Below are positions 2,246-60,964 of a DNA stretch of 64,000 bases, in pieces. The notes below the pieces were generated by a model. The model had not been told where the DNA came from and did not search any database. It worked only from the letters and a program-made list of their open reading frames with translations. Position 1 is the first letter of the stretch. The number at the start of each line of letters is the position of its first letter. Origin of the DNA: Simmondsia chinensis (taxonomy: Eukaryota; Streptophyta; Magnoliopsida; Caryophyllales; Simmondsiaceae); the NCBI GenBank assembly GCA_018398585.1, contig JAGTTD010000006.1, positions 6,460,501 to 6,524,500 of the forward strand, written 5' to 3'. Made by a program: the position numbers and the translations under genes.

Positions 2246-2893
2246 TTAAAGGGTTTTTTTAGCATGTTTAGCTTCGACATATACTTCACACTTACTAGAG
2301 TTGGTATCACTGAAGTTAGGAATCATGTTCGTTTTTTTAGGTCGCTTAATTGAGTCAACATTTATGTGTCCTAAGCGAGCGTGCCACAATTTAAGGGGTT
2401 CAACAAGATAAGCAGAAGAGGTCCCCACATTAGTATTCATGTAAACAGTGTCAAAAACAAATAGGCCATCATTACAAATTCCATTGCCCACAAATTCTCC
2501 ATTCCTAGTTAGGACTAGTTTGTTTAAGTTAAAGGATAATTTCAAACCAGCTTTAGTCAAAAGACTACCCAAAATCAGATTCTTACGCATTTCATACACA
2601 TGTAGCACACTTGTTAAAGTAAAAAAATTTCCAGAAGCGAGTCCAAGTATAGGTGCTGCTACTGAATTGCCCACATAGACTACTTCTCCATCGGTCATTT
2701 TCTGGTATTTTTGCAACATGTTTTGGCTTTTGCAGATGTGCGTGGTAGCCCCGGTGTCCACGATCCACTCAGTCATATTGTTCACCAGATTCACCTTTGA
2801 AACAACCACTATAATGTTCTCCGTCTCTACCAGATGAGCTTTGTGCTTTGGGTTCTTAGGCTGGTTCCTTTTGATTTTGCAATCTTTGGCCAT
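2246..2893 (-). pseudogene. Copia A protease and GAG-pre-integrase segment
   Basis: A 215-codon open frame. It carries the aspartic protease active-site motif WIVDTGATTHIC near residues 43-54, then the GAG-pre-integrase stretch with LWHARLGHIN, the histidine part of the integrase HHCC zinc finger. It continues from the zinc knuckle without a large gap. It is the longest intact piece of this element, but the frame ends before the integrase core. Confidence 0.85.
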
Positions 2894-3657
2894 ATGTCCA
2901 CGTTTTTCGCAGTGGTAGCAATCTCCAAGAAATTTGCTATTTGATTTTTGAATCTGTCCATCAGGTTTGAATGATGCTTTTTCTCTTTATTCTTGAACTT
3001 GTCATATGCACTAAGCCTAACTTCTACAATATTAGCCTTAGAAAGATTGGAGTAAGATTACCCCCTGTCCTTAAGCCTATTTTCTTCTTCAATTTTTAAG
3101 TGGTTCACTAACTCCTCTAATGTTAGGTCTTTTTTCTTATGCATGAGCAAATTTCTACAGTCCTTTCAAGAAGGTGGAAGTTTTTCAATAAAAACATAAG
3201 CTTGTGTAATTTCACATATTTTAAGGCCTTCTGACAAAAGAGTAGTTACTACATTTTCATATTCATGAACTTGATCTATTATTGGTTTATTGTCAACAAA
3301 TTTAAAATCTAGCCACTTACTAACAACATATTTTCTAGGCCCTACATCATCACCCCCATATTTTTTTCTATAGGGAATCTTAAATTTCTTTTGATGAGTC
3401 TAATTTTACATAAATATTGAAAAGACCATCACTCATGTAATGCAGTAAATTACACCTATAGGTTTGGTTATCAGCGGTGAATTTTTCTTCATATGCCTTT
3501 TTCTTGTTTTCATCTTCAGGTACCTTTTTTCTATAAAGTACGTAATCGATGTTGACTTGCTCTAGGTAAAACAAAATTTTTTTAGACCACCCCCTATAAT
3601 TCTTCCCGTCAAGGGGGTCAACCTTAGATATGTCAGGAAGAGATAATTTGGTTGCCA
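2883..3657 (-). pseudogene. Copia A gag (capsid and CCHC zinc knuckle)
   Basis: The start is the ATG at 3657, which opens MATKLSLPDISKVDPLDG. The ORF runs further upstream, but that extension is leader sequence. Gag forms the virus-like particle and binds RNA. The capsid part continues through several frames with stops near 3390 and 3165. The C-terminal zinc knuckle is intact as CYHCEKRGHMAKDC at about 2882-2923 (C-x2-C-x4-H-x4-C). The breaks mean no full Gag can be made. Confidence 0.8.
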
Positions 3658-3769
3658 TGTTTAAATATAGATATGTAAAAATCAAATCGTCTTTTAGATT
3701 GTTGTAATAAATAGTAAGAATAGCTAAACCACAACAAGATTGCAACGTATTTTTATATGTAAATATTTA

Positions 3770-4080
3770 GAAAATGTAGTAAAAATTACAGCAAAAATTA
3801 CAGTAAAAGTTACAGTTAAAAGCAGCAGTAGATCAGAGAAAAAATACTATAAAATTCAGCAGAAAAATAGCAGTAAATTATAGTAAAACACTAATATAAA
3901 TTGCAGTAAGATAAATCTATAAATGCAGTAAAATACTGTTGTAATTTCCAGCAAAATACTGCAGTGGAATTGCAGCTGTTAAAATCAGTGAACCAGCAGT
4001 AAGAACGAGCAAAAAATTGCAGCAAAAATACCTAAACACAGTAATTAAATAGTACCGAAAAGTGGAGAAGTGGATTAGAA
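3770..4080 (-). repeat. degenerate GCAGTAAAA-type repeats in the Copia A leader
   Basis: On the plus strand this stretch repeats variants of gcagtaaaa and aaaattacag roughly 15-20 times with irregular spacing, between the LTR and the gag start. It has no coding capacity. It looks like local slippage expansion in the untranslated leader. Confidence 0.6.
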
Positions 4081-4139
4081 TACTGAAAATACCACACCAT
4101 GGAAAATACCACTGTCTTGAAAGACGATTTCGCTGCTGC

Positions 4140-4722
4140 TCCGGTGTAAATAGTTGTATCGGCGGCCATCCTATAGGATTAACACGGTCCGACTGTTAAC
4201 GTACACTCGTTAATCTTCAAGTAGGAGAGCCCAAGAACTTTGCCCAAATATTTTGAGAGAGGAGGACCGAAGATTAGAGGAGAGGAGAGAAGAGAAGAGT
4301 GTTGTTGATTGAGTGATGATGCATTATGTGAAGTCTTGTATTTATACTGAAATTATAAGAAGTCTGCACTAATTGCCAACGTTCAAATGCAGTAATGGCC
4401 AAGGTTCAACAGCTAAATTCTTTGATCAACATAAATCCCAACAGTTAAAAATAATAATATCTGCAGTGAAGAAAACGTAACATCAACGGTGCAGATTTTT
4501 CGTAAATTAAATATACCCATTAATAAAAAGCACAAGCACGCCTGCACCCACACCCACCCCTCGCCCGAGCGCAGCACTGCAGGCAGGCGGCGCGCACGTG
4601 TAGTTCCCAATCTCTCACCGATGACTTAATTCAAAGGATTGTTTTAACATGTACATATATAAACCCAAATAACATCCCCTCTTTTGTCTATGTGGGATGT
4701 GGGTTTGTATCTTTTTCCAACA
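4140..4722 (-). repeat. 5' LTR of Copia A (inner boundary uncertain)
   Basis: The minus strand begins TGTTGGAAAAAGATACAAAC at 4722, typical of Copia LTRs. A TATA box (CAGTATAAATAC) lies near 4345-4356, followed by a short GA/CT-rich leader, as in a U3-R junction. The inner end is placed near 4140 only by composition; no convincing tRNA-Met primer site is visible next to it. Confidence 0.6.
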
Positions 4723-5548
4723 TTTTCAACTTAAGCAAAAAACAAGTTCTACACTTTTTGACCTTGTTACTACCATCGCTCTAGTAGGGGTAGTACAATG
4801 TTTTAACCTATTTTGGGTAAATGTTTTCATGGGTTAGATTTTAAGAGTAAAACAAATGGGGTTAAAAGAGGTATAATGGTTACCCCTGTGGCTATAACCA
4901 TCAACCTTTTAATCCCATATCAAACATGCCCTCAGTGGTGAGGCTAAATAAAAACTTTCCTAGTTCTATTTATTTTGTTTTTTTGTGCAAATCACGACAT
5001 ACTGCATTTGGACACGAGTAGTAAATTTTTGTATGACATGAATTGTTTAGGCTCACTATATATCTTGACTTGAAAATATTTTGTATAGAGAAAATAGAAA
5101 AGTGGGCTATTATAAGACATCAAACTTGTGGCAAAGAAGGGGCAAACAATTATGCTTAGTACCACTAGAACAAAACATTAGCCATTTATACTAATATTAC
5201 ACTAAAACTATTACGATTTAGATTTGTATAAATGAGCATACTAAAAAAAAAAGTTAATCACTTATGAGTATTTACTACCCAAGTTAACTTCTATGGTTTG
5301 TCGTATTATAAAAAGTAAACCACAAAAAGATGGACTTGATTTGTTAAACCCTCATCAAATAGACCCTAATTAAATCTTTATAATATCACCCTAAATAATG
5401 ATTTTAATGTTTCATAGGAATCATGCTCTGCATTTTTGTTTCTATCATTAAGTGGCCGAGGGGCTTTCCTAATGCCATATCCGGCATATACATATACCGA
5501 AATCATATTTGGTTATTATCTTTTATCTCTATCTCTAATAATAATTTA
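4723..5548. other. AT-rich intergenic stretch without recognisable gene
   Basis: Only short random frames and AT-rich sequence are seen. I recognise no coding, RNA or transposon signature. Confidence 0.5.
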
Positions 5549-5897
5549 GGATTTTTTTGCAAATGATCATCTACATTTTATGTCATCTAACTTTTAACCA
5601 TCCAACTTTCTTTCCTTTTTTTTGTTTTTTTTTTTTTTTTTTTTTTTTTTTGCTTTTAATCCTCCAAAAAAGTTTGGGTAGCAAGTGACCACCAGTTAAC
5701 CCCTAGTCAAAATGGAATATTCCATCCAAAAATTGACGGAATATTTTGTTTTGGTTGATGGAGGGGTTAAATGGTGATTACTTGCTACCAAAAACTTTTC
5801 TAGGTGGTTAAAAAAAAAAAAAAAAAAAAAAGGATCGAGTGGGTAAAAGTTAGATGATATAAAATGTAGTTGGTTATTCACACACAAAAAAAATACC
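5549..5897. mobile_element. foldback (long inverted repeat) MITE-like element
   Basis: The two halves are imperfect reverse complements over about 145 bases each. The left arm runs from ggatttttttgcaaatgatc, through a T tract, to gtagcaagtgaccaccagtt. The right arm runs from aaatggtgattacttgctac, through an A tract, to aaaaaaaataccat. The short loop includes gaatattccatcc. The ends (GGATTTTTTTGCAAAT) resemble Mutator-type MITE termini, but I found no matching 9-bp target duplication. The small antisense frame across it is an artefact of the poly-T/A tracts. Confidence 0.75.
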
Positions 5898-6036
5898 ATT
5901 TTTATCATTATAATAAGAATACTAATGAAAATAACTATTATAATAGTAATAATACTAATTTCAACAATATTATTATGATTATTCTTATTGTTATTATTGT
6001 TGTTATTATTTTATTATTATACTAATAATGATAGCA

Positions 6037-6042
6037 ATGTCT

Positions 6043-6091
<49 letters not shown>
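6037..6091. repeat. (AAT)n microsatellite
   Basis: About 16 consecutive AAT units, preceded by a longer degenerate ATT/TTA-rich zone from about 5920. Confidence 0.95.
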
Positions 6092-6093
<2 letters not shown>

Positions 6094-6299
6094 ATTATTA
6101 TTGTTACAATACTAATAGAAATTTTTTTTCGATAATTATCATACAAATAGAAATATTACTATTAATATTTTTTTGGCCAAAAGACAAGCACTGTATAATT
6201 CATATATCAAAATTTTGAATCATATACATGTATATCCTTAAATGCTCAAAAATAATCAAAAAATGTTTAAAACATTAACAAGAAGTCTGCCTTCCAGCC

Positions 6300-6537
6300 T
6301 GTGAAGCAACATAAAAGTAAGGAATTGAGAGAATATTGTTATGTTATTGAATGCAAAGAATATAATTATATTACATTAATAATTGATTACAAGAGCCGCT
6401 ATATAGGCAAATACATTATTAAGGCAATTGATAGAAATAAGGAAAGATGACAACACTGTGAAGACATTGTGATATGAGAATTAGAAAGGTAAGAGCAAAT
6501 ATAGGAAGATTGTGATGACATATGGTGTCATCTAATA
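6300..6537 (-). repeat. 3' LTR of Copia B
   Basis: Matches 11450-11715 along its length, with shared blocks such as gaattgagagaatattgtta and attgattacaagagccgcta. Many substitutions and a ~28-bp length difference indicate an old insertion. The polypurine tract follows at 6538-6551. Confidence 0.85.
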
Positions 6538-6569
6538 CGCCCCCTCAATCTGAATTTTTTTTTTTGGGG

Positions 6570-7014
6570 GGGAGGGGGGGCACGTGAAGATTGGCCTTGT
6601 GATAGAGAAACTAATAAAAAGAGAGGCCTTTTGCGAAGATGTCGGCTACCTGTTTGGCAGTAAGCGTGTATTGAACCTGGGGCTTTTCTTTCTCTTGAAC
6701 ATAACGGAAATCGACTTGGTTCGGTCAATAGACACTGGGTTAGCTGCCAAGTATGAGGCAGGGACATTGTCACAGTAAGCAGTGATGGGGCCAAAGTGAC
6801 ATATGCCAAGATCTCGCATAAGGTACCTGATCCAATCACTTTCTGCCACGGCTTGAGCAATTGCACAATACTCAGATTCTGTGGTAGACTTGGAGATGGT
6901 AGCTTGTTTCTTGGCTCGCCAGGAGATAAGATTGGGACCTACGAAGAGGGCGTAACCTGTGGTGGAGCGGCTAGCCTCCCCATTCAGTGTCAGCAAAGAC
7001 AGAAACAGTATCAT
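6570..7014 (-). pseudogene. Copia B RNase H
   Basis: The open frame 6646-7014 carries GYALFVGPNLISWRAKKQAT and STTESEYCAIAQAVAESDWI, the RNase H stretch at the Copia Pol C-terminus, then AYCDNVPASYLAANP. The C-terminal tail is frame-shifted and ends just before the polypurine tract. Confidence 0.8.
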
Positions 7015-7076
7015 AGGATCCTAGAAGGATAGACATGCAGTAATCGGGGTGCTTTTGAGATATCGTAAGATGCGCT

Positions 7077-8214
7077 TCACAACTGCCAATTGTTAGACCT
7101 AGGAGCATGCATAAATTGAGAAACAAAGTTAACGGCATGGCAAATATCAGGCTTGGTCATAGTTAGATATTGGAGACCGCCAACTACACTTCGTAGGGTC
7201 AGAGAGAAGCTCTCCCTCAGCGAGGGTGAGTTGTGTTCGGGAGTGTAAGAGAGTTTTGACGGGCTTGGCTTCATGCATATTGAAGCGCGTGAGGAGATCA
7301 GTGGTACATTTGTGTTGAGAGAGGAACAATCCTATGGTGTCACGAGTAGCCTCTATACCAAGGAAATAATGTAAGGGTCCTAAGTCCTTCATCGCAAATT
7401 GCAATGATAGGGTGCAAGTGAGGTCATCCAGGGTGCGGGCATGCGTGCCAATCAGGATAATGTCGTACACATATAGAAGAAGACATGTGGTCTCATTGTG
7501 GGTGCGATGGAGGAGGAGGAGGAAGGAAGGTTCAGCCCTGCTACAGATGAAACCAATTCTAAATAGAAAAGAGTTGAAGCATTGAAACCAAGCTCGAGGA
7601 GCTTGTTTAAGGCTATACAGAACTTTTCGCAAACGGCATACATGATTGGGAAACTTTGGATGTATGAAACCCTTTAGTTGTCGCATGTAAACCTCTTCCT
7701 ACAAATAGCCATGTAAAAATGCATTCTTGACGTCAAGTTGTCTGATGGGCCAGGCATTAGTAACGGCAAGTGAAAGTATAAAGTGGATGGTAGAGGGTTT
7801 GACAACAGGGTTAAAAATCTCTTTATAGTCAAGGCCTTCACGCTGGTGAAACCCTTGAGCAACAAAACGAGCTTTAAAACATTCCATTGAACCATCTGCT
7901 TTATACTTTACTTTATCCTTCCAAGTGCTGCCTATAATATTTTTGTTGGAATCAGGAGGGACTAGGTCCCTAGTTTGGTTTTGAAGCAATGCATTAAATT
8001 CATCATATGGCTTCTTGCCATTTAGGGTTCTTGACAACTTGTGAGTAGCAAGTGGGTTCCTGGATAACCGTGATAGTGAAAAGGGATAGGGGGTACCTAG
8101 GGCGACGAATACCTGATTTGAGATGAGTTTGTATGGGATGGGTAACTGACTCCGGGCGAGACATGGCTCTACAAGGAGGGTCAACATCATGTGTGGTTGG
8201 GGGCTCGGGGTCAT
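7077..8214 (-). pseudogene. Copia B reverse transcriptase
   Basis: RT N-terminal motifs are at 7699-8214 ([33 protein letters not shown]). A TAG then breaks the frame near 7700 and RT continues at 7147-7686 ([17 protein letters not shown]). The polymerase motif reads [12 protein letters not shown], so YVDD has become YVYD and one catalytic Asp is lost. Near 7175-7200 the frame shifts into the connection region ([19 protein letters not shown]). These defects alone make it inactive. Confidence 0.85.
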
Positions 8215-8236
8215 GGTGCGATGCGTCTAAACTTGC

Positions 8237-8912
8237 TCAGGCTGGACTGAGAGGGGCAACATGGGGGTCCAAAGGACCCATGAGATCTATCGGGGCCCCG
8301 TCAGCCGTGGTGTCAGGCAAGGGGAGAGGGTCATCCAGCATACCCAGGGCGAGGTTTCTGTGACCCGACGAGAAGGCACGGAGGGAGCCACCGCTTGGGC
8401 TGGGAGCCGTAGTGGTTGGTAGTGCCAGAATAGGGAGGGGAAGGGGGACTAAGTTAAGGCTAGTATCTTGGTGTTGGGTAAGCAGCTTAACAAGGTATGT
8501 GCAAGGAAAATAATGCTTATCAAGTTTTATGTGACAGCTAATATAAATGCGACCCGTAGTCGGGTCAAAATAGCGAAAACCCTTGTGCGAGTAGCATATC
8601 CTAATAATACACAAAGTTTTGGAGTGAGGAGCAAGTTTGTGCAGAACAAGTGTAGTAAGATTAGGTAACAAGTGCACCCGAAGGCGCGAAACCGCTAGTA
8701 ATTGGGAGGTTTTGGAAAAGCTTTTCGAATGGGGACAAGTTTTGAAGTAAGAGGTGGGAAATTTTTTTATCGTGAAACATGCAATACACACAGAATCATC
8801 CCAAAAGGAGAAGGGTAACTTAGACTAAATAAGTAATGTGCGTGTCATTTCAATGAGATGTTTATGTTTACGTTCCGTAACTCCATTTTGTTGGGGAGTG
8901 TCAGGACAAGGC
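8237..8912 (-). pseudogene. Copia B integrase (C-terminal half only)
   Basis: The reading starts at the CPDTPQQNGVTERKHKHL stretch (about 8850-8900), which contains the third catalytic acidic residue (Glu), then runs into the 8237-8791 frame (SVCIACFTIKKFPTS, GFRYFDPTTGRIYIS). The first two catalytic Asp residues are absent because the N-terminal half is missing at the insert. A stop interrupts the frame near 8820. Confidence 0.75.
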
Positions 8913-24329: not shown

Positions 24330-25300
24330 TTAGACAGCCCCGACAGCACTCCTATACTCAGTAGGATCCTTAAGTGGATCCGCATCACTCAACCAGAGGT
24401 GTGCTCGGGTTGGGAGGGGGGTTTTGACGGGTTTAGAGTTGCATAGGTCATGCCTAGAGAGGAGGTTGATTGTGTATTTGTGTTGGGAGAGGAAAAGGTG
24501 ATCGAATGTGCGCTTGGCTTCAAGTCCAAGAAAGAAGTGGAGAGGTCCAAGGTCCTTCATGGCAAATTGGGTAGAGAGTGAGTCAACAAATTGGTTGAGG
24601 TGGGTTGGGTCAATGCCTGTTAGTATAATGTCATCGACATATAATAAGAGGCAAGTGAGATGAGTTTTAGTCTTGTTGATGAATGGGGATGGGTCAGCAC
24701 GGCAACAGGTGAAACCAAGAAATAAGAATGCACTAAACCGTTGGAACCATGCCCGAGGTGCCTGTTTGAGTCCATACAATGCCTTTCGTAGATGACATAC
24801 ATGATTTGGAAATTTGGGATGTATGAAGCCTTGTAGTTGTTTCATGTAAACTTCTTCCTTGAGGTAACCATGTAGGAATGCATTTTGGACATCCAACTAA
24901 CGAATAGGCCAGTTGTATGTGACTGCAAGTGTAAGTATGAAGCGTATGGTAGCGGGTTTGACAACAGGGCTAAAGGTCTCCTTGAAGTCAAGGCCTTCAC
25001 GTTGGTGAAATCCCTGAGCAATAAGATAGGCCTTGAACCGTTCTATTGAGCCATCCGCTTTGTACTTAACTTTATACTTCCATGTGCTTTCTATTAGGTT
25101 TTTTTAGGGACCGTATGGAACTAAGTCCCAAGTGTTGCTTAGGATGAGCGGATTAAATTCATCCGCCATGGCTTCTTGCCATTTTGGATTTTTCACAGCT
25201 TGTGAGTAACATGTGGGCTCTCGGATTACGGTGATGGAGGAGAGGGAGAGGGGGTACTTAGTTTTATGTATACCTGCTTTAAGGCGCATTTGCATGGGTG
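24330..25300 (-). pseudogene. Copia C reverse transcriptase
   Basis: The RT N-terminus is at 25104-25295 (KNPKWQEAMADEFNPLILSN). The main part is an open frame at 24330-24896 ([40 protein letters not shown]). The catalytic motif LLLYVDDIILTG is intact near 24635-24660, unlike in Copia A and B. Stops at about 25105 and 24897 break continuity. Confidence 0.9.
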
Positions 25301-25601
25301 TGTGTTGAGCGGTAGTCCTACCGAGGTGGGTCGCTCGGGTTCTGGTTCTATGCTGGTTGCGGTAGGGAGGTTCAGGGTGCTGGATCCTGGTGGGAGTGGG
25401 TGAGGGAGGGGCCGAAGATGCCTCAATTCAAGGCGGGTCCTCGAGCTGAACCAGAGCCTTGAGAAGGTCCAGGGGCGAGTCGGGGTGAGGGGGATAGGGC
25501 AGGACCAGCACGGGAGGTGGGGTGCTGCTGTCGTTGGCCGGGGGGGTTTTGCAGGTTTAAGTAAACTATTAGGGGTGGGGGAGTTGTGGCATCAGAGACT
25601 A

Positions 25602-26698
25602 CTACATCTTGATTAACAGGTTCGTTATAAGGAAAGCGGGTTTCGTTACATGTCGGCTTATGTATGAGCGTTTGTGTTTAGGGTCAAAGCACCTGTAACC
25701 TTTGTATTGAGCAGCATATCCTAGAAAGATGCAAGGGATGAAGTGAGGGGCAAGGTTATGAGGGGCACGAGGTGTGATGTTAAGGGAACATGCACACCCG
25801 AAGACGCGAAAACGAGTGTAATCCGGGTTAGTTCGAAACAGTTTTTGAAAAGGTGATCCGTTTGAGAGATTTGGCGTAGGGAGACGATTTATAGTAAAAC
25901 AGGCTGTGCAAAAAGAGTTATCCCAAAATTCATAATGTAACTTAGAGTGAATTAGGAGCGTCCATGCCATTTCAGATAAATGTTGATGCTTACGTTCCGC
26001 CACCCCATTTTGTTGTGGGGTATAAGAACAAGATAAGCGAAAGTGAATACCAGCATCACGAAAAAGAGCATTCATACGCTAATGATTGTATTCACCTCCA
26101 CCCGTTTTCTGAAAGTAGTGAAGATTTCATGAACTTCAGATTTTTGTTATCTTGGATATAGCCAAGTAAATCGGGAGAAGTCATCAATAAATAAAACATA
26201 ATATTTATAAGCTGAATTAGAGGAGACAAGTGATTGCCAAACATCATAATGTATTATTTGTAATGGCATGATAGTTTGCATAATACACATTCAAAAGGAA
26301 GTTTATGAGACTTTCCCAAGCAACATGAGTTACATTTATTCGCAATTTTAACTCGCGGAAAGAAATTTTGCTTACATAACATATCAAGAATAGTACTGCC
26401 TAAGTGACCTGGTCTTTTGATGCCACAAATCTCCAATGCTTGTTTGCGCTACGAGGCCTACATCATGGGGGGGGAAACCATAGAGGGACCCATCACTAGG
26501 CACTCGAAGAATCGGAGTCCTAGCAGTTTTGTCCTTGACACAGAAAAAATTTGAATCAAATTCGACCCTACAATTGTTATGCCGACACAGTTGTTTAATT
26601 GAGAAGATGTTATGTGTGAGGCTAGGTACAAGCATTACGTTGTGGAGTTTAAGAGATGAAGTGGGGGTGGGTATAGTTGTCGAACCCACATGTGTCAC
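25602..26698 (-). pseudogene. Copia C GAG-pre-integrase and integrase
   Basis: 26384-26698 holds the GAG-pre-integrase start (TPTSSLKLHNVMLVPSLTHN). 26254-26436 holds the HHCC finger end (PGHLG...CNSCCLGKSHKLPF). 25602-26075 holds the integrase core end with the catalytic Glu in QQNGVAERKHQHL and the C-terminal FGCACSL...FLGYAAQYKGYRCFDP. The stretch around 26080-26250, which should bear the first two catalytic Asp residues, is frame-broken. Confidence 0.85.
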
Positions 26699-26718
26699 AG
26701 GTAATAATGCACCATTGC

Positions 26719-27010
26719 CTACAAGTACACCTTATGCCCAGAATAAGGAAGAGGGTTATTGAGAATACCTGGATTCGACGTCATATGATTCGTGGCACCG
26801 GAGTCAAGATACCAATTGTAGTCATGTGGTTCTTCAAGAGTCATGGCAACAAGCGAGTGAGAGGGATCGGAGAAGGAGGTGCTATTAAACCGATGTGGAC
26901 AAGTGACAGTCGTATGTCCAATTTGGGAGCAGATTTGGCAATATTGAGGACCGGGCCTGAGCACACCTGCATTAGAGTTAGAGGGAAGACCGAATGGGGG
27001 TCGCACTAAA
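26719..27010 (-). pseudogene. Copia C zinc knuckle and protease
   Basis: The open frame carries CQICSQIGHTTVTC (intact C-x2-C-x4-H-x4-C) and then WYLDSGATNHMTSN, the aspartic protease active site with D-S-G. The Gly-rich Gag tail lies just upstream at 27006-27200. The frame is lost into the GAG-pre-integrase region. Confidence 0.85.
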
Positions 27011-27327
27011 CCAGGGTGGGGGGGTCCATCGGTGGGTGGCGGGGTGGGATGCTGGCCGGGAGGGCCCCCATGACCGCTACAACCACCGTGCTTCCCCTTT
27101 CCTCGGCCATGGCCACGGTTGTCGTGGCCTGGTGACGGTTTCGGCTGCAGTTAGCCGTAGGACACCATGGGGTGGCTCGGATTGGGGTTAGACCATCCAA
27201 ACTGTTGGGTTAGAGCAGCCTCTTCATTGAGTCTTCATAAGTATAATGTTTGTTTGTTTGGCGTGTAAGTTGTAAAAGCAGCATATTCAGGAGGTAAACC
27301 ATAAATTGCAAAGTGTTGAAATTCCCT

Positions 27328-30720: not shown

Positions 30721-32509
30721 TTATGTTGCCTTTTCATAGTATTTTTAAGGGATGAGGCCTTCTTAAATGCAATTGAGATCAACTCCTGAGTCTAAAAGAG
30801 TTAGAGTTTGAATTTTATAATTTTTTAAAATATGAAGTGTGACGTAAATATTCCATTTTTTATATTCTATTTTTCTATACTTTGGGGATATTTTTCTTTT
30901 GATGCAGGCTTGTCTGGTATTTGAAAGTTTTCTAATGGAGGCATTTGTTTTTGTTTGGTAAATAAAGGATCTAGTTTTGTTTCTATCAAAGATATTTTGG
31001 CTTCTAATTCAAAGTCTTTGTACTATTGTGTTAATAATTCATTTTGTAATGATTTGACTTGCCTTTTTAATTCATTTATTTCTTTTTGAAGTTCTCTCAT
31101 TGAAACTTGTTTAATTATGCTGGGAGTAGGATATCTTTGAAGTACTTATTATAAGGTGAATGATTGTTTTGATATAGTTAATTCTTGTTTTTTGAATATT
31201 ATTTCTTTTAATTTCAGTAGATATTCTTTTCTTATGTTTTAATCATTGATTTTTCTACTATACCTAGTAGAGCTTCTTTATTTGATTTTGTTAAGATATT
31301 AATTATTTTATATTTGCATGGGCATAAATCTTGCCTTGAAGAAGAATATGACTCTTCACTTGCTAAGTTTTCTTGGATTTCAAAAATATGGCCTCATTTT
31401 CTGAGTTTGAATTTGAACGTAATATATTTATCATTTGTTGTCTTAATTCTTCATCTTGAATATTATAAATTTTTACTTTATCTGGCAATCTTTTTGATAA
31501 TGACTTGATTTTTTACAATTATAACAGATTGGAACTTGACTTGATTTTCTTTTGGTATATTTTCTTTTTTTATAATATTGAGGGGGCGGAGGTTGTTCAT
31601 ACTTGTTTTTTTTTCTTCATTTCTTATAATATTTAGTTTTTTGTGAAAAACATTGTTTCGATATTTTCTTGATGGAGCTTCGAAATCTTGAATCCCATAT
31701 TAGGCGTAGAAAGATCCTAATTCTTTTCTTGTTTGGGCTTTTTGAGACTATTACGTAATTTTTGTCCTTCACATAATACTAAAGCTTCTTTGTTGACAAA
31801 TTTAATTAATTGTCCATAAGTTATATTTTGCCATGGAATACTTAAGCTGCCATTATGTTGTTGTAATTTGGTCATGATTCTTGTAACGAATAATTTTGGT
31901 AGTCCAGTGATAAATCTTTCTTTCCAAAATATTTGATTTACATCTTTCCGTCGTAAGACATGGGTCATGAGCATGTCTTTATACCAACGAAAATCTTGAA
32001 GTGAGGGGCATCGAAGGTTTGTCAAGAAATTTTTTTAAGATTTCATTTCTTCTGTTGGATTTCCAACAAAGAACAGTGCATTGACCATACTAATGTTTTC
32101 ATTGCATCTTCAACTTCTATTTCATAGAATGGAGAATTAAAATCTTCCGGATCCACTCTTACACATTCAGTGCGATTGAGTACTGCATTTTAATCAATTG
32201 TAGTTAGTATATTTGTCCACCAATATTTGAGTTTTCCTACAAATCTTGCAATAATAAATTTTACACTTTTGTTTGAATTGTTACGTGTTCCATAGGCATT
32301 GGCTGCCATCCATAGGCATTGGCTGCCATTGCCTCTTGATGTAGTGTGTTTAAGATTTTATATTCAGATTTGCTATCTATATTGCATGTAAAGATATCTT
32401 GTCCATTGTATGAATTTGATGGAAATTGGTTGAATCCTTAATATTATATGTCTGGTGGAGAGGGTCTTGGATAATAAGCTTTAGTGGCATTGCTTTTCCA
32501 TTTTTGTGA

Positions 32510-33820
32510 CTAGGGTGTGCACAGTGGAAGGGGAGACAGACGTGTTCCCAATAATAGTCGTGGTATACCAAGGATCTGCCTTGAGCCCCTATTTGTTCAT
32601 TCTGGTAATAGATGAGCTCAATAGGAACATCGAAGGAGGTGTACCTTGGTGCATGCTTTTCGCATATGGCATAGTAGGTTAATGAGAAGTTAGAATTGTG
32701 GAGAAGCGCATTAGAATCGAAAGTCATATGACTTAGTAGATCCAAGACCAAGTACATGGAGCTTAAATTCGATCCTTCCACCATGCCTCGCAGAGAAGAC
32801 GTCAAGATTGGATTTGAGCCTATATCGAGAAAGGAGAGTTTCAAATACTTGGGGTCCATGATACAGTACAACGCGAAGTTGACGAGGATGTCAATAACCG
32901 GATTAAAATAAGATGGCATAAATGAGGATGGCCTCCGCGATGGTTTGCGATAGAACGTTTCCCTTAAAGCTAAAGGGAAGATACTATAAGACGGTAGTGA
33001 GGCCAGCCATGTCTTGTAGGGCGGAGTGTAGGGCGATGAAACAACATCATACATAGAAGATGAAGGTGGCGAAGATGAGGATGCTGCGGTGGATGTGTGG
33101 ACATACAAGGAAGGATAGGATCAAGAATGACATCATAAGAGGTGAATTAGGCGTGGCCTCTATGGAGTATAAATTAAGGGAGGAACTTTTGAGGTGGTTT
33201 GGACATGTTAGGAGGAGACCGAGCACCGCTCCAGTCAGGAGATGCGAACATCCCCATACTACGCTAGGCAGGAGAGGGAGAGGCAGGCCAAAGAAGAGAT
33301 GGATGGAGACGATCAGACAAGACCTCGCCCACCTAAACTTCGGGAGGAGATGACCTTAGATAGAGCCCAATAGAGGGCTAGTATATGGGTAGCAGATATA
33401 GCAGCTTAGAGTAGGGTACTCCAGCTTATTAGTGCTAGCACTAGTGTTTCTAAGCCTTTCACTTCCTCTTCGGTGCACTTATGTGCATATGTAATCTCTT
33501 GATTTACTATCTATTTATCGACTTATTTGCAAACTGCTATTTCTCTTCCTATCATACGCCTAGCTCGTGCTTTGAATTGAGTATGCTCGTAATGCCTGCC
33601 TTCTGCCTTGCCCTGCTCATATGGTTATTGCTCTCTTGCTGCCAGGCTGCTATGCTCCAATGTTGCTGACAATCTTATCAGGTTGGGGGTCATCGGAAAC
33701 AGCCTCCCTTCAGGGTAGCTCCCGGAAGAGGGAAGGCTACGTGCATCTACCCCACAAACCCTAGCTATGCGGGAGCCCTTTGAGGCATTGGGTTTTTTTT
33801 TTTTTTGTTGTTGTTGCTGC
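32510..33820 (+). mobile_element. 5'-truncated RTE-type LINE inserted in the EPRV coat region
   Basis: It starts inside the RT (TRVCTVEGETDVFPI, GSALSPYLFILVIDELN), with the catalytic box decayed to MLFAYG. The RT C-terminal region (MLRWMCGHTRKDRIKNDIIR, LRWFGHVRRRP, GRGRPKKRWMETIRQDL) is open at 33060-33353. The 3' region ends with gccctttgaggcattggg, a T tract and ttgttgttgttgctgctgc. The flanks duplicate tgctttTccatttttgtga (32491-32509) and tgctttGccatttttgtga (33821-33839), with one mismatch. A short TTG-type tail is typical of plant RTE LINEs. Confidence 0.9.
33679..33820 (+). repeat. RTE LINE 3' tail shared with the 5S-headed SINE
   Basis: The stretch caggttgggggtcatcggaaa through ggaagagggaaggctacgtg to gcgggagccctttgaggca recurs, with substitutions, as the tail of the elements at 42462-42596, 51112-51222, 56049-56165 and 59550-59668. 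Confidence 0.85.
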
Positions 33821-41940: not shown

Positions 41941-42461
41941 TCATATATATATATATATATATATATTCGTAGTCTTTCTTAGTTAGGGATGATCTAATAA
42001 TCATTTTGCCTAAACAACCCAAAATGTTTCACCCGAAATAAAAATCGTCTGATTTTTTAATGGATATAAGAATCTCCAACTATTCTCTTATACTTGGATG
42101 ATCCAAACAGTCATGCCATCAAATACAAGCCTTTTGGGTTTTTAACTTCTGGTGACCATCCAGATGGGTATCTCAATGAAATTAGATTTATTTGTGATGT
42201 AATAGAGAGTAGAGCCTTACTTATGAAAAATATTGTTCCTATATGAAACAAGATATGTGCTCTTCTGGGGCCATTAATTAAGTTTAAAACACCATCTGTT
42301 GTGACGTTGTATGAATTTTCACCATTTGTATTTTGTAAAACATAAAATACATATAAGCACAAACGATATTATAAGTGTGATATCGCAAAACAATATTATG
42401 TTTTAGATTATAGTTGAACCTGCTGATCCTTGGTAATGAGACATGTTATAAATAATGTACA

Positions 42462-42707
42462 AAAAAGGAACATACCCAGTGCCTCAAAGGCTCCCACCTA
42501 AGCAGGGTCGGGGGGGGGGGGGGGAATGTACGCAGCCTTCCCCTTTCAGGGTGTTAACCTGAAGAGAGGTTGTTTCCCAGTGCCCCCAACCTGAGGATGA
42601 GGACTTCCCAAGAGGTCACCCATCCTGGTATTACTCTAGCCCAAGTACGCTTAACTTTGGAGTTCTAATGGGATTCGGTGACAGCGTGTTGGTGCCCTCT
42701 TTGGTTT
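42462..42707 (-). mobile_element. 5S rRNA-headed SINE with RTE LINE tail (most complete copy)
   Basis: On the minus strand the first ~105 bases match plant 5S rRNA, including ATCCCATTAGAACTCC, AAGTTAAGCGTACTTGGGC (A box) and AGGATGGGTGACCTC (C box). After GTCCTC the sequence switches to AGGTTGGGGGCACTGGG and continues to GGGAGCCTTTGAGGCACTGG, the tail of the RTE LINE at 33679-33820. The flanks are taaataatgtaca (42449-42461) and taaataatataca (42708-42720), a 13-bp duplication with one mismatch. The head keeps an internal Pol III promoter layout. A poly-G run (from about 42511) has grown in the tail. Confidence 0.8.
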
Positions 42708-43415
42708 TAAATAATATACACATATTATTAAACATATGTCATATAAAATATCAGATGGATGATACCATTGTTGTTTGTACAGAGTAAGACAACATCATTT
42801 TATTAAAGTAAAACATATTTTAGTACAAAGGATACACTTAAAAGAATAACAAAAATTTTAGTCAATTTGAACATTTTTATTTCCTATCAAATGATCAATT
42901 TTCCCATTACGATCTTCGGAAAAATTAGGAACATCTAAATGTTTATCATTGAGTGGAGAATGATTTTCAGCAAAATTGGCTTCTGGAAAATTTTTCCCCC
43001 CTTCAACGATGCTCGGTAAAGATCCACCAAGTGTTCGACTGTACGACATGTACGCGTCCAAAGACCTTTTGACCTCATCGGTAAAAATATATTGTTTCCA
43101 GATCTTTTGACATATTTTGTCAAGGGGAATTTTCCTTTCTATATTTCTCCTTGTCATCTGTGGATTTCTTAAATTTTTGGTCCGCTCTGGTTACCATAGT
43201 ATTAGTTATTATGACCACGATTATAATCTCGTCCACGGACGCAGCCACGCCCATGACCACGTCCTTGATGGTCGTATGTCGTAGCATTCACTTCAGGGAA
43301 TATTTCTAATCTATTTGGACATGGCTGATGATTTTTCATTAATAGCCATTGTTTTGTTAGAAAGGTGACATGATATTAACTCTGAGTTTTTCTTAAAATC
43401 TCATTCTCGATATTG

Positions 43416-46034: not shown

Positions 46035-60964
<14,930 letters not shown>

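Follow-up and report, generated by a model that had tools for sequence, protein, structure and literature searches.

Structure of the Element in the Window

In the window, the whole 64,000-nucleotide stretch of Simmondsia chinensis (jojoba) DNA analysed here, a full-length copy of a short interspersed element (SINE) of about 244 nt, belonging to a type designated subfamily A, occupies positions 42462-42705 on the minus strand. Direct inspection of the minus strand of 42462-42705 reveals a 112-nt head derived from 5S rRNA (42594-42705, minus), fused to a LINE-derived tail of about 130 nt (42462-42593, minus) that ends in GGGTATGTTCCTTTTT. No open frame of at least 110 aa falls within the unit in the frame list of the window, in line with a non-coding element. 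Rfam scans return a single family, 5S rRNA, both around the element, at E values of up to 1, and in the whole window, at gathering scores, and no tRNA gene was found in 42200-43000; a tRNA-headed SINE of the TS/Au type was rejected on these grounds.

The element is bracketed by a target-site duplication, with its 5′ copy at 42704-42720 and its 3′ copy at 42445-42461 (both minus), the two being alike at 15 of 17 positions. The length of this duplication is given as 15-17 nt because 2 of its 17 nt overlap the first bases of the element. The original prediction had described duplications of 13 bp; a duplication does exist, but it is longer and less perfect. A second copy of subfamily A lies at 51041-51222 (plus), 5′-truncated at head position 54 and hence without head positions 1-53, with head positions 54-112 matching at 100% and the tail at 95%. 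Its own duplication, identical at 15 of 15 positions, comprises a left copy at 51032-51046, overlapping the first 6 bases of the element, and a right copy at 51223-51237 (both plus).

The 5S rRNA Head and the 5S Genes of the Host

The Rfam family 5S_rRNA (RF00001) matches 42588-42705 (minus) over the whole model, positions 1-120, scoring 53.3 bits (gathering score 38), so that base 1 of the element corresponds to 5S position 1; the roughly 105 bases of 5S-like minus-strand sequence noticed at the outset are borne out by this match. Other subfamily A copies, among the seven loci scanned, score 64-75 bits, and two older copies score 45.4 bits (L033) and 32.2 bits (L014, below the gathering score).

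By its sequence, the element carries a SINE3-type 5′ head from 5S rRNA in which the three parts of a 5S-type internal promoter can be placed on the minus strand, namely box A (42642-42656), the intermediate element (IE, 42634-42639) and box C (42609-42626), at positions that follow the usual coordinates of the 5S boxes. The original prediction had spoken of both internal promoter boxes; boxes are present, but they number three rather than two. The window copy is one base off the family consensus in each of them, and the consensus itself is identical to a host 5S gene in box A and IE and differs from it at 2 bases in box C.

The genome searches covered the assembly from which the window comes (831 Mb in 35 contigs). 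For the host 5S genes, 47 matches were scored out of 51,838 first-look candidates in the genome, 46 of them on contig C8 and the remaining one on C29. Those on C8 form two 5S rDNA arrays, at C8:4685657-4702430 and C8:6396691-6414603, whose repeat unit measures about 420-440 bp. Aligning the heads to the 5S genes of the species, a check suggested together with the original prediction, gave 77 of 80 identical positions, with no gaps, between the family consensus and one host 5S gene (L068) over positions 26-105, and 28 nt precede CGGATC in both sequences, which places them in the same register. At the 5′ end of the head, the consensus agrees with the 5S gene at only 2 of the first 12 bases and 9 of the first 25. 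The element is considered to start at the 5S transcription start because 19 of the 40 stronger target-site duplications in the family end just before base 1 and 12 overlap base 1, with the Rfam model as the reference for where the 5S RNA begins.

The Tail and Its LINE Counterpart

A broken RTE-like LINE is located at 32485-33820 (plus), comprising a reverse transcriptase (RT) remnant (32485-32679), a C-terminal piece (33057-33350), a tail (33679-33805) and TTG repeats. The SINE tail at 42462-42593 (minus) and the LINE tail at 33679-33805 (plus) match the same query, in agreement with the common tail that had been predicted. Two further related tails without a head, probable LINE 3′ ends, lie at 56061-56163 (plus, 75%) and 59554-59667 (minus, 80%). 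The SINE tail agrees at 114 of 127 positions with a consensus built from 11 related tails that were classed as headless, one of which, L014, proved to be a 5S-headed copy. Thirteen tails without an obvious head were examined; two were ends of subfamily A, one (L014) was 5S-headed, and seven of the other ten end in TTG repeats.

The RT remnant reaches 21 bits against Pfam RVT_1, below the cut-off of 29.6, and a PDB search with it gave no useful match. For the C-terminal piece, 427 relatives were obtained among 434 candidates; among the 120 relatives listed, those labelled by organism are plant proteins, and three source names include reverse transcriptase. A LigT match of this piece, below its cut-off, was disregarded. 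The LINE is presumed to belong to the RTE clade, an assignment based on the homologous plant proteins and the TTG ends rather than on a tree. Plant RTE LINEs have been described with TTG ends (PMC3747384).

On sequence similarity, the 3′ tail is common to the SINE and to a LINE of the same genome that is RTE-like. The expectation of a common RTE LINE tail holds for the body of the tail but not for the last bases, which are CC-TTTTT in subfamily A versus TTG repeats in the LINE; none of 52 subfamily A copies has TTGTTG, and 41 of the 52 have TGTTCC or TGTTCA. Recognition of the subfamily A tail by the LINE is not regarded as proven, because its 3′ terminus differs from the TTG repeats of the LINE.

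Family Size and Dispersal

In a search with the whole unit, 40 matches were scored from 9,491 first-look candidates, with hits on many contigs, and all 40, the window copy included, were 90-100% identical over nearly all 246 bases. In a search with the head alone, all 40 scored candidates matched, and each of the 30 loci fetched, which include the window copy and some copies from the whole-unit search, shows the head followed by the tail. Exact matches to the 26 nt spanning the head/tail junction number 2,421 in the genome (1,217 + 1,204), against 0 for the reversed-pattern control, and this count leaves out mismatched copies; both window copies are excluded from it, the full-length one having 1 mismatch in the 26-mer. 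According to the original prediction, chance insertions would be indicated if the junction turned up no more than once or twice genome-wide, or if heads and tails never occurred together; the junction was found 2,421 times and 30 of 30 heads are tailed.

Six 10-kb stretches chosen irrespective of the element contained two subfamily A copies, one 5′-truncated and one cut by the end of the stretch, as well as one older 5S-headed copy, which suggests a copy number of the order of 10^4 from a sample of just 60 kb. The family consensus is 242 nt long, and the element is a short, non-coding, dispersed, high-copy SINE. Junction patterns gave no matches in viral contigs (two differing patterns) or in prokaryote genome contigs, a result that is uninformative on other plants because these collections are viral and prokaryote.

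Target-Site Duplications and 5′ Truncation

Duplications were scored in a sample of 60 loci, chosen by their similarity to the window copy, from which 58 distinct matches were retained (identity of at least 82%, 60 bases of flank, a single match for each downstream flank), of which 52 are full length. A target-site duplication scoring at least 9 is present at 45 of the 52 full copies, compared with 2.5% of 2,652 swapped flank pairs, and the 40 duplications scoring at least 10 have a median length of 18 nt and a range of 10-25. An earlier pass over 30 loci found duplications in 22 of 30, against 3.0% of 870 swapped pairs. Ten copies picked by the junction alone, taken from the top of the list of junction positions on contig C1, match the consensus at 84-97%; nine of them have a duplication scoring at least 10, with none of 90 swapped pairs reaching 9, and three are 5′-truncated. 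A clear duplication is absent in 7 of the 52 full copies and in 1 of these ten. Four matches in the set of 58 were tagged as 5′-truncated, one of which (L002, 82%) is in fact a tail that lacks a head and ends in TTG. Three older single copies have weak duplications, with scores of 7, 8 and 10, swapped pairs in this small set reaching 8.

Target-site duplications of variable length are a feature of the family, and such duplications, together with some 5′ truncation, are expected of LINE-driven insertion. The genome search with the unit that had been proposed alongside the original prediction has yielded many copies, one 5S/tail junction and duplications of 10-25 nt; the predicted plant SINE family is upheld by the 40 whole-unit matches out of 40, the 2,421 exact junctions and the duplications at 45 of 52 copies.

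Subfamilies and Their Ends

Subfamily A, the type of the window, ends in CC-TTTTT, and its consensus has a single run of at least 4 Ts, at the very end. A second type is represented by L014 (about 2061-2310, minus) and L061:177-410, the latter being a copy that also appears at the end of L033, with the junction GTGTTGCCAACCCTATAAGGTTGGGGG or a near relative of it. Both second-type copies, followed to their end, finish in TTG-type repeats, as in the LINE. The second junction has 6,475 matches (3,332 + 3,143) at no more than 3 mismatches, counted on the junction alone with no bases beyond it, and the reversed control gives 0. In a third type, represented by an old copy at L064:3959-4128, a nearly complete 5S end is joined directly to the LINE tail.

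The relative ages of the types are inferred: the direct 5S/tail junction of L064 is perhaps ancestral, and the TTG-ended type probably stands nearer to the original form, with the T-ended type having acquired a different end. A Pol III stop at the terminal T run of subfamily A would be advantageous.

Proposed Mechanism and Alternative Explanations

The structure and family status of a 5S-headed, LINE-tailed plant SINE are demonstrated. The window element is very probably a copy of a SINE3-type family transcribed by Pol III and moved in trans by an RTE LINE, the transcription and the use of the LINE being deduced from these structures. Pol III and the 5S factors would start at base 1 of the element through boxes A, IE and C, and the polymerase would pass through the tail and stop at the terminal T run. 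The LINE reverse transcriptase would then recognise the common tail and, through target-primed reverse transcription, copy the SINE RNA at a new site.

Another LINE, such as a plant L1 that tolerates T-ended RNA, might be the main mover of what would still be a real SINE, with the RTE tail as a relic; the T5 end of subfamily A, instead of TTG, speaks for such a partner, and in maize, poly(T)-ended and poly(A)-ended SINEs have been proposed to have one common L1 partner (PMC2774510). This is considered unlikely, since about 130 nt of tail have been retained, with 114 of 127 positions agreeing with the consensus of related tails, and the two second-type copies seen to their end have LINE-like TTG.

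It is very improbable that the element is a piece of an LTR of Cassandra, a 5S-bearing TRIM. Cassandra LTRs of plants do have 5S promoters (PMC10853983), but here the duplications lie directly against base 1 of the 5S head on one side and the LINE tail's end on the other, the half outside the 5S sequence is the 3′ end of a LINE, and the longest direct repeat within the 751 bases of 42200-42950 is 25 nt at 72%, with no repeat of LTR length. No LTRs were noticed at the fetched copies, where duplications were what was checked systematically.

The chance neighbourhood of a 5S pseudogene fragment and a truncated LINE end could draw on the many 5S-like first-look candidates in the genome (51,838, of which 47 were scored) and on the existence of headless related tails, but with one junction in 2,421 exact dispersed copies against none for the control, and one duplication pair bracketing head and tail together in 45 of 52, it has a negligible probability. 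Spread by DNA-level duplication instead of retrotransposition, for which no favourable point was found, is just as improbable in view of the differing flanks with differing short duplications, unrelated at most copies examined, the many contigs and the 5′ truncations.

Relation to Known Elements

BovB is a LINE of the RTE clade. The springhare element Ped-1 likewise combines a 5S rRNA head with a LINE tail, that of BovB (Table 1 of PMC3747384); it is a rodent element, presumably of independent origin, and was compared by its description rather than by alignment. Because Ped-1 has the same architecture, the 5S-head/LINE-tail kind is already known, and the jojoba element is not a new kind; it is new for plants as far as the literature covered reaches. 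No plant 5S-headed SINE was found in the open-licence literature searched, including PMC7215508, and subscription papers or repeat databases may contain one.

A 5S-derived head is shared with the SINE3 class (AmnSINE1, zebrafish SINE3, OS-SINE1, lepidopteran HaSE3 and fungal AfuSINE3), which differs from the jojoba element in having animals or a fungus as hosts. The tails of AmnSINE1 and SINE3 are CR1-type and that of OS-SINE1 is RSg-1-type (PMC3747384), compared with the RTE-like tail here. The original prediction had attributed 5S-headed SINEs to animals; animal cases are indeed known, but a fungal one, AfuSINE3, has been reported too, with five copies (PMC5063351).

Among plant elements, a tail common to an RTE LINE is found in Au SINEs, whose heads, like those of TS SINEs, are tRNA-derived, in contrast to the 5S head of the jojoba element. 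The tobacco TS SINE has such a tail as well (PMC3747384). The end of TS is given as TTG in PMC3747384, but as poly(T) in PMC2774510, and three SINE/LINE pairs in flowering plants are described in the former. The Cassandra TRIM is, like the present element, a plant element with a 5S promoter, but it is an LTR retrotransposon with the 5S sequence inside its LTRs (PMC10853983); new promoters in SINEs are mentioned for animals in the same source.

The jojoba family, with thousands of copies, shows that 5S genes can give rise to SINEs in plants too, following the head/tail scheme listed for the rodent element Ped-1 (PMC3747384). In a work on SINE3 elements of Lepidoptera, the 5S promoter of Cassandra was speculated to derive from an inserted SINE3 (PMC10886601), and the present family offers a possible plant source for that speculated origin. 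Elements with 5S heads may escape plant annotation in which tRNA boxes are the starting point. In AnnoSINE, the SINE-Finder step seeks boxes A and B, and a later classification step knows 5S heads (PMC8825457). In maize, a search for 5S-derived SINEs by boxes A, IE and C was reported to be unsuccessful, and the four maize families described there have tRNA-type boxes (PMC2774510). A wider and doubtful proposal is that plants contain an overlooked lineage of 5S-headed SINEs passed over by tRNA-box searches. In this view, Cassandra could have obtained its 5S promoter from such elements, and a closed terminal helix like that of 5S, re-formed at the boundary of head and tail, may persist in their RNA, which could thereby exploit proteins that bind 5S, or contact with the ribosome, to capture LINE protein as it is being made.

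RNA Folding and Other Features of the Window

A 5S helix I rebuilt across the head/tail junction was considered and rejected, as an after-the-fact observation that is no proof of structure. Pairing is possible between the first 12 nt of subfamily A and the junction (-11.9 kcal/mol for the duplex, with 0.6% of 5,000 shuffles as stable), and the eight proposed helix pairs hold in 48 to 52 of 52 copies, with changes that are mostly one-sided. In the same duplex test, 4.9%, 17% and 36% of shuffles were as stable for three older copies. When the whole consensus is folded, its 5′ end preferentially pairs with the T run at the 3′ end. The isolated head and junction of subfamily A fold with z = -1.62, 12 of 200 shuffles being as good, and for one older copy 188 of 200 shuffles were as good, i.e., it folds worse than most.

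Elsewhere in the window, broken Ty1/copia-like open frames, judged by eye, lie on the minus strand at 2246-8824 and 24330-27150. A gene resembling nuclear poly(A) polymerase has plus-strand frames at 55470-58017; a piece of its last frame has 97 protein matches, the top one at 52%, and those labelled by organism are from flowering plants, e.g., Morella rubra at 48%.
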